Assembly: GCA_039196715.1 (NCBI GenBank)
Contig: JBCCUP010000042.1
Location: forward strand, 1-40,630
Reading direction: 5' to 3'
Origin: Pseudomonadota bacterium
GTDB taxonomy: Bacteria > Pseudomonadota > Gammaproteobacteria > CALCKW01
DNA length: 40,630 bases
Below the pieces are notes generated by a model. It had not been told where the DNA came from, ran no database searches, and worked only from the letters and a program-made list of their open reading frames with translations. Shown here piece by piece: positions 12,301-18,634 of the stretch; within the stretch, counting starts at the first letter, position 1, and each line of letters opens with the position of its first letter. The translations under genes were made by a program, and so were the position numbers.

Positions 12301-12442
12301 CGCACCGTGTCAGACGACCCGTCTGCCCTTATTGTTGCGTCGCGGCAGTGTGAACTGAACGCCCACGGCGGGCAATTACCAGCAGCGCTTTGGGTGCCGC
12401 GTGCTCGCTTGCACACGGCATTGGGCACGGCTCACACAGGGC

Positions 12443-12832
12443 ATGGGGCATCGCCAAACCCCGGACCGACACCGACCCTGTGGGAGCTGCATCATCGCGA
12501 AGCGATATGTGGGGCCCGCCTAGGGGCGAATGATGTGGCGAATCCAACTCCGCATTCGCCGACGCTCGCTCCGCGAGGCGGCGGCTCCCACAGGGGCGTG
12601 GGGCATCGCCAAACCCCGGACCGACACCGCGCGTGTGGGAGCCGCATCGTCGCGCAGCGGCATGCGGCGATGTTCTCGATGCCCGACGCGCCGAATTCGC
12701 CTACGCTCGCTGCGCGAGGCGGCGGCTAACACAGGCATGGGGCATCGCCAAACCCCGCACCGACACCGACCCTGTGGGAGCTGCATCATCGCGAAGCGGT
12801 ATGTGGGGCCCGCCTAGGGGCGAATGTTGTGG
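12443..12832. repeat. Tandem REP-like palindromic repeat array
   Basis: The 580-base gene-free interval contains a composite repeat in three copies. A spacer with core GGGGCATCGCCAAACCCC starts near 12445, 12599 and 12739. Each spacer is followed by GTGGGAGC(T/C)GCATC at 12480, 12635 and 12774. In the first two copies an inverted partner closes the unit: GCGGCTCCCAC at 12581-12591, and a degenerate GCGGCTAACAC at 12722-12732. The third is a left half only, nearly identical to the first over about 90 bases. The GTGGGAGC start and imperfect palindromes resemble REP/BIME elements mobilised by RAYT transposases. No RAYT gene is in the window. Bases 12301-12440 and 12833-12880 hold nothing recognisable. 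Confidence 0.8.
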
Positions 12833-12880
12833 GGCATCCCCACGCGCACGGCGAGCCGGCCAGACACGTGTGATGGCTGG

Positions 12881-15357: not shown

Positions 15358-15682
15358 GTTCGCTCAGGTACCGTCTCTGCGTCCCGACCGGGAGTCGTGG
15401 GTTGCGCCGTCGAACGGCCAACACCGCCGTCCCAGACGGGTGTGACCCACAGAATAGCCCAGGAGTTCAGCGACAATCGGCCCGATCCCGCCGGTCGACG
15501 CCGGCACCGATGTGACGCACATCACGCCCGGGCGCGCATTCTTCCGGAAAACAGCAGTACGACACCAATACAGGTCGCGAATGCACCAACGCGGTGCGCC
15601 GGTTTGCCCCATCGTGCGGCCCGCATCTTCTCACAGCGCCACTGCTCGGCGATCCAACCCGACAACCAGAGACCCGACCACC
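15358..15682. other. Leader region of the SerC-SerA fusion gene
   Basis: The reading frame of the fusion gene stays open back to 15512, but the upstream codons encode an arginine-, serine- and proline-rich segment unlike the N-terminus of aminotransferases. I treat it as untranslated. It contains a CRP-like site at 15511. No obvious sigma-70 promoter could be fixed. Confidence 0.4.
15511..15526. promoter_or_regulatory. CRP/Vfr-like binding site
   Basis: TGTGA-CGCACA-TCACG matches the TGTGA-N6-TCACA consensus at nine of ten informative positions. It lies 157 bases before the chosen start of the SerC-SerA fusion gene. Occurrence by chance is possible in this base composition. Confidence 0.4.
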
Positions 15683-18634
15683 ATGCACGACCTCGAATCG
15701 CAACGCGCTGCATCGCGCGAGGCCACCCGGCACGGCGCGCCCGCGCGCACCGTCAACCCGTTTTTCGGCGTCGGGCCCATCACGGACGTGGTCACAGACG
15801 AGATGGTCGGGCGTGAGAACCGCTTTGCCTTTGACCGCTGGTTGGAGGAGACCTACCGCAAGCTCGACGACACCGGCCGGGATCTCGGGCCCTTGACGAC
15901 AGCCGAAATCGGTCGATCGATGCACCGCGGCTACCCGGCCGACGCGATTCTGCTGGACATGATGCACCACATCCACCGGTACTTCGGTTTGCCCGAAGCG
16001 AACCCGATGGCCGTCGGCCTCGGGGGCGGTCACTCGGGCTTCACGGTGGCGATCATGCACCTGATGAACCCGAACCTCGAGCACCAACGGGTGTTCGTCG
16101 ACACGCCGCGACCCGAATCCGAGGCGGCCGCCCGTGGCGGTTTTTTCCGTCAGAGCTGGGGCACACAGATTCTGGAGTTGCAGCAGTTTGCGGCCAACGG
16201 CAACGCCGACAAGATCCACTTTGCCGACGCCGAGGGCAGCATTCCGTCGGCGGACGAACTCGAGGCACTCGGCATTACCCTGTTCGTCGGTGTCGGCCAC
16301 GAGACCACCGGCGCCACGACCTACACCGAGTCCGAAGTCGCCTCCCTGCTCACGTGGTTGGGCGGCGACCCGGCCAATCGCCACGCCATGATCGATGCGA
16401 CATCCATGCTCGGCGCCATGCCCTGGAGTCAGCCGGTGGTCGATGACTTCATGCAGAAGTGCTGCATATTCACGCCCTTTCAGAAAGCCATTGGCGGGGT
16501 GTCCGGCTACTTCCTTGCCTCGTTCACCCCGGCCGCGATGCAGTTGATCGACGACAACCAGAAAAACCCGGCGTGGGCCATCGCACGGCAATTGAAACTG
16601 GTGGTGCCGACTGACGCGAAGAAGCCGCTGACAGGTGACCAGTCTGTCGGCCTGGGACCGTTCTACGACGCCGCCGCCCACAAGATGACAGGCGGCGTAA
16701 TCAACACCTTCTCATCCCTTGCGTTTGCCGAGACCACCTATTGCCTGCTGCGCGTCGAGAAGCTGATTGGCCCGGTCAGCAACATGAACGCGCGCTCGGC
16801 GGCCAACCGCCAACGTATCACCGACTGGCTCGAAGGACAGTCTCTGCTGCAAGCCGGGGTTGCAAACGCGGACAAGCGGGGCGCTGCAGTGACCTTGCTC
16901 GCCGTCAATGACCCCGGCATCACGGACGCCGGCCTGCATGCACGCATCATCGCGCGCTCGAAACAGTTGCTGGGCTACGAAGGCATTACGCACCCCAATG
17001 GCGACCACGAGCCGGGGCTCGACGCAGCGCGCTACGTCAACGCCTTCCCCGGTACCCCGGGCGACTACCGAGCGTGGATCAACGGTATCCGCGACGCCGA
17101 CGACATCGAGCGCCTGCTCGAGAACATCAGCTACGCCTACCACCGCGCCAAAATCGTGGTGCTCGAGGAGGAGCTCGCCACCGAGGGCGTCCACTTCGAC
17201 GCCGACACCGTGTCTGGGCCGGCAGCGCGCGTCGACGACCCGTCGAGAGCGTATCGCATCCTGATCGCTGACCTCGTTGGCCTGTCCTTCGACGCCGATG
17301 GCAAGCCCGACCCCTCCGAGGTCAGGGCACACATCGAGGCAGAGGGCGCGAGCTTCACCGACGGCGCCTGGGATGGCCGTGAACTGCCGCCGGGCCAGCA
17401 CTTCTTCTACCTGCCCAACCTGTCCACCGAAGCCGAATTGACGGCAGCGTGCTGCGACAACCAGTACGACGCCGTGATCGCTGCCGCGACTTTTCTGCCC
17501 GCCAACGCCACCTTCCCCGAAGGCGGTGTGCGGATCGGCGCCGGCACCGGCAACATGGCCTGCGCCTGCTGGGGCGGCGGCGACGGCGCCGGCGGGTCGG
17601 CGCCGCTGATGAACACACCGAGCTTCAACAGCCGGGCGACTGCGCAGAGTGTGATGAAAGCGCTGCTCAAGGTCGTGCCCGATCTCGACGTGGCCGGGAT
17701 GCATGCGCGAGTCGTCGCCGGCGACTTCGACACCGGCAAGCACTTGTGCGAATACCCCACGCAAAAGCTCGAGGGCAAGCGCCTGGGTGTGATCGGTTAC
17801 GGCAACATCGGCCGTGAGGTCGCCCTGCTCGGCAAAGCCTTTGGCATGGACGTGACCGTGCACGCGCGTGCGCGTCACCAGGCCTGGATCGAGTCCGAGG
17901 GTTTTCGCTACGCAGCGACACCGGCAGCGGCGGCCGAGGGCGCCGACGTGCTCTCACCGCACACCGGCCTCGGCGCCAAGGGCGCCGACGGTCGCTTCGC
18001 CAACGCCGGGCTCGTCGATGCCGCGGTGCTGAGCCAACTCAACCCTGGCGCGGTGCTGATCAACTACGACCGTGGAGAAGTGGTCGACGCGGACGCGTTG
18101 CGTGACGCCATGACGGCGGGCCGGGTACGCTACGCCGCGATCGACGCCGACCTGTTCGTCGCCGAGGACGGCAGCTTGTCTGGTCCGATGGTGCCCTACC
18201 GCCCGCTGCTCGATGCGTTCCCGGGCCGACTGGAGCTGTTGCCGCACGCAGCTGCCGACACGGAGCACACATCGCGTGTTGCCGGTGCAATCCAGGCAGT
18301 GAACCAGTTGCTGAATGCGATCCGCTACCGCACGGTGGTCAACGTCAAGGGCGACATCCCGCCGGGCTACAGCGACGGAGGCGCGCACACGGTCGCCGGG
18401 GTCGGCAAGGTCTCACCGTCGGCGATCGCACGTCGGACGGCGGACGGCGAGGCATTGACCCGCTTGCGCGACACCGCCGAAACCCTCGCGGCGATCCTCG
18501 GCGCTCTCGAGAGCACGCGCGATGCCACCCGACGTGCGGAGTTGCTCGAGGCGCACGCGGCGACGCTGGTCATGGCCAACAACCGGTTGCGCCGCGACAG
18601 CGACGTCTTCGGGTTGAACGGCAACTTCGGCTAG
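15683..18634 (+). CDS. SerC-SerA fusion: phosphoserine-aminotransferase-like plus phosphoglycerate-dehydrogenase-like
   Basis: A 983-residue bifunctional protein. Residues about 1-490 are a fold-type I PLP enzyme resembling phosphoserine aminotransferase. Features are LGGGHSGF, the PLP-contacting D238 in MIDATSML, and the Schiff-base lysine K268 in TPFQKAIGG, corresponding to the QKNIG of SerC. Residues about 520-890 are a D-isomer 2-hydroxyacid dehydrogenase. Features are GVRIGAGTGNM, MNTPSFNS, the NAD motif GVIGYGNIG (705-710), and the catalytic set R797 (NYDRGEV), E828 and H855 (LPHAAAD). About 90 helical residues follow; there is no ACT domain. SerA and SerC catalyse consecutive steps from 3-phosphoglycerate to phosphoserine and are normally separate proteins. 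The ATG at 15683 is the best start, though its ribosome-binding site is poor. No serB is nearby. Confidence 0.9.
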   Translation: MHDLESQRAASREATRHGAPARTVNPFFGVGPITDVVTDEMVGRENRFAFDRWLEETYRKLDDTGRDLGPLTTAEIGRSMHRGYPADAILLDMMHHIHRYFGLPEANPMAVGLGGGHSGFTVAIMHLMNPNLEHQRVFVDTPRPESEAAARGGFFRQSWGTQILELQQFAANGNADKIHFADAEGSIPSADELEALGITLFVGVGHETTGATTYTESEVASLLTWLGGDPANRHAMIDATSMLGAMPWSQPVVDDFMQKCCIFTPFQKAIGGVSGYFLASFTPAAMQLIDDNQKNPAWAIARQLKLVVPTDAKKPLTGDQSVGLGPFYDAAAHKMTGGVINTFSSLAFAETTYCLLRVEKLIGPVSNMNARSAANRQRITDWLEGQSLLQAGVANADKRGAAVTLLAVNDPGITDAGLHARIIARSKQLLGYEGITHPNGDHEPGLDAARYVNAFPGTPGDYRAWINGIRDADDIERLLENISYAYHRAKIVVLEEELATEGVHFDADTVSGPAARVDDPSRAYRILIADLVGLSFDADGKPDPSEVRAHIEAEGASFTDGAWDGRELPPGQHFFYLPNLSTEAELTAACCDNQYDAVIAAATFLPANATFPEGGVRIGAGTGNMACACWGGGDGAGGSAPLMNTPSFNSRATAQSVMKALLKVVPDLDVAGMHARVVAGDFDTGKHLCEYPTQKLEGKRLGVIGYGNIGREVALLGKAFGMDVTVHARARHQAWIESEGFRYAATPAAAAEGADVLSPHTGLGAKGADGRFANAGLVDAAVLSQLNPGAVLINYDRGEVVDADALRDAMTAGRVRYAAIDADLFVAEDGSLSGPMVPYRPLLDAFPGRLELLPHAAADTEHTSRVAGAIQAVNQLLNAIRYRTVVNVKGDIPPGYSDGGAHTVAGVGKVSPSAIARRTADGEALTRLRDTAETLAAILGALESTRDATRRAELLEAHAATLVMANNRLRRDSDVFGLNGNFG

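Follow-up and report, generated by a model that had tools for sequence, protein, structure and literature searches.

A fused class V aminotransferase and D-2-hydroxyacid dehydrogenase as a candidate serine-to-glycerate enzyme

The window (the whole 40,630-nucleotide stretch of DNA that was analysed) encodes a 983-residue fusion of an aminotransferase and a dehydrogenase, which is read here, with confidence slightly above even, as a bifunctional catabolic enzyme converting serine to hydroxypyruvate and further to D-glycerate. The N-terminal, PLP-dependent half would take the amino group off L-serine to yield hydroxypyruvate, the amino acceptor most likely being a dicarboxylic 2-oxo acid such as 2-oxoglutarate, while the C-terminal half would reduce hydroxypyruvate to D-glycerate, probably with NADPH. 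A separate glycerate 2-kinase would then form 2-phosphoglycerate, so that serine originating from glycine, betaine or one-carbon compounds would enter central metabolism. The placement of two consecutive steps on one chain is plausible, and support is firmer for the dehydrogenase step than for the substrate of the aminotransferase. Serine as the amino donor is suggested by the need of the reductase and the altered phosphate site of the aminotransferase, D-glycerate as the product by the fusion and by adjacency to glycerate kinase, and NADPH by the residues of the cofactor site; hydroxypyruvate would presumably be handed between the domains.

Both parts of the protein are recognisable enzymes (Table 1), the frame is real and its two halves are under purifying selection. 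From the ATG at 15683 to the stop at 18634, the 983 codons for residues are free of internal stops; the longest possible frame begins at a GTG at 15512, and alignment places the start of the relatives at the ATG. Comparison with the closest relative, Roseovarius albus (79% identical), gave pN 0.12 and pS 0.66 for the N-half and pN 0.16 and pS 0.67 for the C-half. With nonsynonymous changes rare in the N-half and the C-half alike, the protein is kept up as a whole, and purifying selection on both argues against a frame that is open by chance or a join made during assembly. The single open frame with aminotransferase and dehydrogenase, described in an earlier note made from the sequence alone, is therefore borne out.

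Table 1. Features of the fusion gene in the window (coordinates are positions of the window)
Feature	Position	Strand	Remarks
Whole fusion gene	15683..18634	+	ATG start, 983 aa; full-length fusion family, purifying selection
N-half, residues 1-498	15683..17176	+	Class V aminotransferase fold (predicted), remote SerC homologue, outside Pfam families
H81-R82	15923..15928	+	Equivalent of the SerC His-Arg pair from the other subunit; invariant; roles: PMC6043687
D238	16394..16396	+	PLP N1 ligand equivalent; invariant
Q267-K268	16481..16486	+	PLP phosphate ligand and Schiff-base lysine; invariant
Gate loop V452-N453-A-F-P-G-T-P-G-D-Y-R463	17036..17071	+	R463 kept, SerC phosphate-binding His/Arg absent
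Linker, about residues 499-521	17177..17245	+	Short, variable (alignment); model confidence low at 508-515
Dehydrogenase, residues 522-889	17246..18349	+	Pfam PF02826 2.9e-26; fold match Z ~25 over 522-894
A728-R729	17864..17869	+	Replaces NAD-binding Asp (45/46 sequences); predicts NADP(H) preference; rule: PMC6303947
R797	18071..18073	+	Catalytic Arg; invariant
H855	18245..18247	+	Catalytic His; invariant
C-terminal helical tail, residues 890-983	18350..18631	+	Without domain match

The N-half matched no Pfam family and its profile found no significant relative among PDB sequences, so its fold had to be predicted. As fold searches with the whole model returned dehydrogenase matches only, the N-half was folded alone (AF2, mean pLDDT 86.5), and the best PDB match of this model was the PSAT 2fyf (Z 24.7, 3.3 A, 355 residues), consistent with a class V/PSAT fold. 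Alanine/serine:glyoxylate aminotransferases nearly tie with it (Z 23-24), and the fold is thus unable to pick the substrate. SerC models were matched by all 20 family members tested (best 2.1e-19), and the N-half profile aligned end to end with the SerC of the same genome (98.3% probability, 366 columns, 25% identity), although E. coli SerC by itself produced no useful hhalign match. The family cut-offs lie far above the scores obtained, which were 39.8 bits against NF002841 (cut-off 477) and 28.4 bits against TIGR01365 (cut-off 448) for the window protein, and at most about 65 bits against the SerC model for the fusions of 12 other genomes. On these profiles, “SerC-like” is valid as a superfamily label only.

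K268, which the earlier note had named as the PLP lysine, aligns with that of SerC and is invariant across 28 sequences, as are the PLP ligands W159, T208, D238, Q267, N341 and T342 and the substrate-carboxylate arginine R463. The possibility that the N-half is no longer a transaminase (catalysing another PLP reaction or serving as a regulatory pseudo-enzyme) draws on its high divergence, family-specific insertions and missing Pfam match, but is highly improbable given the invariance of these ligands and of the carboxylate arginine, together with strong purifying selection. Arabidopsis PSAT binds the phosphoserine phosphate through a His-Arg pair and through His396 and Arg397 of the gate loop (PMC6043687). 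The former, contributed by the partner subunit in SerC, corresponds to the invariant H81-R82, while the columns of the latter are occupied by V452 and N453 in the fusion family (alignment including the SerC of the same genome and of E. coli). The site would still hold an acidic co-substrate such as 2-oxoglutarate and suit phosphoserine less; nevertheless, R450 near the gate loop is invariant and could stand in for the lost phosphate ligand, a point against the serine-to-glycerate reading.

The N-half therefore resembles SerC (serC_2 type, NF002841/TIGR01365) in fold (2fyf is the M. tuberculosis enzyme), PLP ligands, carboxylate arginine and His-Arg pair, but differs in its score, extra insertions, missing gate-loop phosphate ligand and fused dehydrogenase, and it coexists with a true SerC. 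With the alanine/serine:glyoxylate and serine:pyruvate aminotransferases (AGT/SGAT), it shares the class V fold and the proposed conversion of serine to hydroxypyruvate, whereas its sequence matches SerC models and not those enzymes.

The fold matches over residues 522-894 ended in a tie between phosphoglycerate dehydrogenases and glyoxylate/hydroxypyruvate reductases, at Z ~25. The C-half passes no curated subfamily cut-off and is a D-2-hydroxyacid dehydrogenase without a named subfamily: it scored 71.8 bits (cut-off 454) and 67.3 bits (cut-off 404) against SerA models and 64 bits (cut-off 434) against the PdxB model, and its best sequence match among solved structures (phmmer) was 5tx7 (1.6e-15). 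“SerA-like”, judged by such scores, is again a superfamily label only. Of the intact Arg/Glu/His set of the earlier note, Arg797 and His855 are invariant (28/28), but the glutamate is not upheld, as relatives carry A, E, D, K, T, S or a gap in the column of E828, which lies near the expected place; the acidic residues D821 and D823 nearby are invariant, and D823 may substitute for the catalytic glutamate. Phosphoglycerate-dehydrogenase matches end at about residue 887, confirming the absence of an ACT domain.

A conserved aspartate marks NAD use in SerA, PdxB, LDH, FDH and CtBP (PMC6303947). At the position of the SerA aspartate (EcSerA D181), the fusion has A728 followed by R729, alanine being found in 45 of 46 sequences; in the same alignment, the true SerA of this genome carries its aspartate two columns earlier, in an insertion. 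Ala-Arg in this place suggests NADPH and the reductive direction, and the C-half would accordingly prefer NADP(H) and work as a reductase. It shares with the HprA of the serine cycle (2HADH subfamily GHRC; 5tx7) the D-2-hydroxyacid dehydrogenase fold, the catalytic arginine and histidine, the missing NAD aspartate and, in some fusion relatives, a serine-cycle gene context. Unlike HprA, it falls under all curated cut-offs, lacks a conserved glutamate and carries an extra C-terminal tail and a fused aminotransferase; two pocket tryptophans are reported for GHRC (PMC6303947). With SerA, the likeness extends to the fold and the catalytic arginine and histidine, while the NAD aspartate, conserved glutamate and ACT domain are missing.

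These features bear on the proposal of the earlier note that the protein is a fused SerC-SerA of the phosphorylated serine pathway, channelling 3-phosphohydroxypyruvate. Each half is remotely homologous to the respective models and H81/R82 are kept, yet the genome possesses a true SerC (C39, serC_2 type; 613.6 bits, cut-off 477) directly adjoining a SerA with an extra, by eye ACT-like, C-terminal domain. A SerC above the cut-off is also present in 11 of the 12 other fusion-bearing genomes, the twelfth being a 2.6-Mb SAR324 assembly. The survey for stand-alone genes that the note had called for thus speaks against a biosynthetic fusion, as do the low family scores, the lost NAD aspartate, glutamate, ACT domain and gate-loop phosphate ligands, and the pairing of C-half relatives with a kinase of non-phosphorylated glycerate. 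Such a role is quite improbable, and it was rejected as the main reading on account of the separate serA-serC pair here and the separate SerC in nearly all carriers. The note had further regarded the domain order as reversed relative to the pathway. Should the serine-breakdown reading drawn from the neighbourhoods hold, aminotransferase followed by reductase is the pathway order, and the absent ACT domain needs no special explanation.

Besides serine synthesis, vitamin B6 synthesis is the one pathway known to use such enzymes in succession. A PdxB-SerC type pair leading from 4-phosphoerythronate to phosphohydroxythreonine would agree with the weak PdxB match of the C-half and with the annotated service of E. 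coli SerC in the B6 pathway, but a pdxA or pdxJ neighbour was not seen among the annotated loci, the conserved NAD aspartate of PdxB is absent and the domain order would again be reversed, making this pair highly improbable.

Among the gene neighbourhoods, partnership with glycerate 2-kinase is the strongest pointer to a serine-to-glycerate function, followed by the serine cycle and, third, by sarcosine/dimethylglycine and folate genes. In Pseudochrobactrum (L017 9998-12457), a stand-alone C-half relative and glycerate 2-kinase form one 819-aa frame, in which the kinase takes the place of the last part of the C-terminal tail; the record annotates the kinase part alone, from 11153. The kinase follows the C-half relative after 3 bases in Aminobacter and Paracoccus versutus, and it follows the full fusion at the same distance in Rhizobiales R129_N. 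The Aminobacter and P. versutus plasmids (L015 762-12682, L016 771-12682) carry near-identical TRAP/aldolase/dehydrogenase operons ending in the C-half and glycerate kinase, with almost equal spacing; recent plasmid-borne transfer is likely.

The serine-cycle context is seen in Sinorhizobium/Ensifer (L037), where the fusion comes last in a series made up, in this order, of a BhcA/serine-glyoxylate-type class V aminotransferase, malate-CoA ligase beta (729 bits, cut-off 604), malate-CoA ligase alpha, a betaine transporter and regulators. In a proteobacterial MAG unrelated to these (L094), the start of a fusion-type gene truncated by the contig end adjoins malate-CoA ligase beta (690 bits) and a malyl-CoA-lyase-like gene, which are divergent from it. 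The order in S. americanum is aminotransferase, lyase-like gene, BCCT transporter and fusion (L116), and an alanine/serine:glyoxylate-type aminotransferase stands immediately upstream of the fusion in SAR324 (L063). In Ensifer BR816 (L091 9001-11024), sarcosine oxidase and purU stand in a row with a family member and a glycerate kinase, both decayed; this strain has an intact family copy elsewhere in its genome (L088). The family gene of R. tropici is preceded by an FAD/GcvT-domain enzyme of the dimethylglycine/sarcosine type and followed, on the other strand, by folD and purU (read from sequence), serine dehydratase and glyA.

This pattern is suggestive and not universal. Neighbours at other loci, including the window, are unrelated, and rhizobial neighbourhoods are variable; in the window, the fusion has no co-oriented pathway neighbour, the next downstream genes lie on the opposite strand, and no sigma-70-like promoter was found. 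Further points against serine-to-glycerate conversion are that MOFRL glycerate kinases may be common in such bacteria anyway and that an aminotransferase of the serine-glyoxylate type is often present already in serine-cycle loci, which leaves room for a different substrate of the N-half. Both halves might instead act on a related non-phosphorylated pair, such as another hydroxylated or branched 2-oxo acid that is made and then reduced. The aminotransferase already present in serine-cycle loci would fit this alternative, as would the broad substrate range and overlapping subfamilies of 2-hydroxyacid dehydrogenases (PMC6303947) and the occurrence of stand-alone C-half genes amid phosphonate and polyamine-type transport neighbours and in the TRAP/aldolase operon. 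The repeated partner of the C-half is, however, glycerate 2-kinase, even within one polypeptide, and this alternative is considered rather unlikely.

If serine is indeed converted to D-glycerate, the Sinorhizobium fusion would be a candidate hydroxypyruvate reductase in the serine-cycle cluster, while the present genome would probably use the enzyme for serine assimilation from glycine and methylated glycines, because a close malate-CoA ligase was not found in it (the sole match, at 47%, is as expected of succinyl-CoA ligase). The genome holds a MOFRL glycerate kinase, as do 11 of the 12 other fusion carriers, and a BhcA-like aminotransferase of class V with a dimethylglycine-dehydrogenase-type enzyme close by. 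A search of its assembly for 16S came back empty.

The family is widespread. A protein search gave 31 plasmid records with at least 80% of the fusion's length, and one genome-contig scan gave 77 loci, mostly alphaproteobacterial (chiefly Rhizobium, Sinorhizobium, Mesorhizobium, Shinella, Labrys, Paracoccus and Roseovarius), along with MAGs labelled Gammaproteobacteria, Deltaproteobacteria and SAR324; phage records yielded ordinary dehydrogenase matches only. Eight of 398 evenly sampled genomes of the phylum had a match at 1e-60, four of them with the full fusion. All loci gathered comprised 78 frames with both halves, 18 with the C-half only and six of an N-half-only class, two of which (L070, L079) are cut by contig ends. 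One proteobacterial MAG (L052 8989-13847) has an N-half-only second copy (610 aa) in tandem after a full fusion. The c56 gene cluster (amidase-like by eye) follows an N-half-only gene in one genome (L084 3581-6506) and a full fusion in a different one (L028 8992-13418), suggesting loss of the C-half. The C-half tree groups the window copy with Roseovarius and a Rhodobacteraceae MAG at 100/100, and the fusion is absent from three other genomes of the genus to which the window belongs (one just 79% complete); acquisition by horizontal transfer is the natural inference. The tree needs two label changes and two stand-alone forms are very long branches, and a single fusion event could still account for the family.

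The family is presently annotated as “NAD(P)-dependent oxidoreductase” only. The open-licence papers that were searched contained no description of the fusion or of its pathway, though one may exist elsewhere. A broader proposal, held with rather less than even confidence, is that a repurposed SerC-superfamily serine:2-oxo-acid aminotransferase and an NADPH-dependent hydroxypyruvate reductase constitute an undescribed one-protein module, which hands the reactive hydroxypyruvate over inside the complex and has been carried by accessory replicons into the metabolism of betaine and one-carbon compounds. If true, a function would be given to a widespread family whose N-half falls outside Pfam, a serine-to-glycerate route would be added in rhizobia and marine bacteria using betaine and sarcosine, and a biosynthetic enzyme fold would have been turned round for breakdown. 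The fusion also offers a simple system for testing the channelling of an unstable intermediate.

Elsewhere in the window, positions 12440-12839 hold a unit of about 106 nt in three imperfect direct copies, which have strong inverted repeats (GTGGGAGC-type arms) and resemble intergenic REP-like palindromes.
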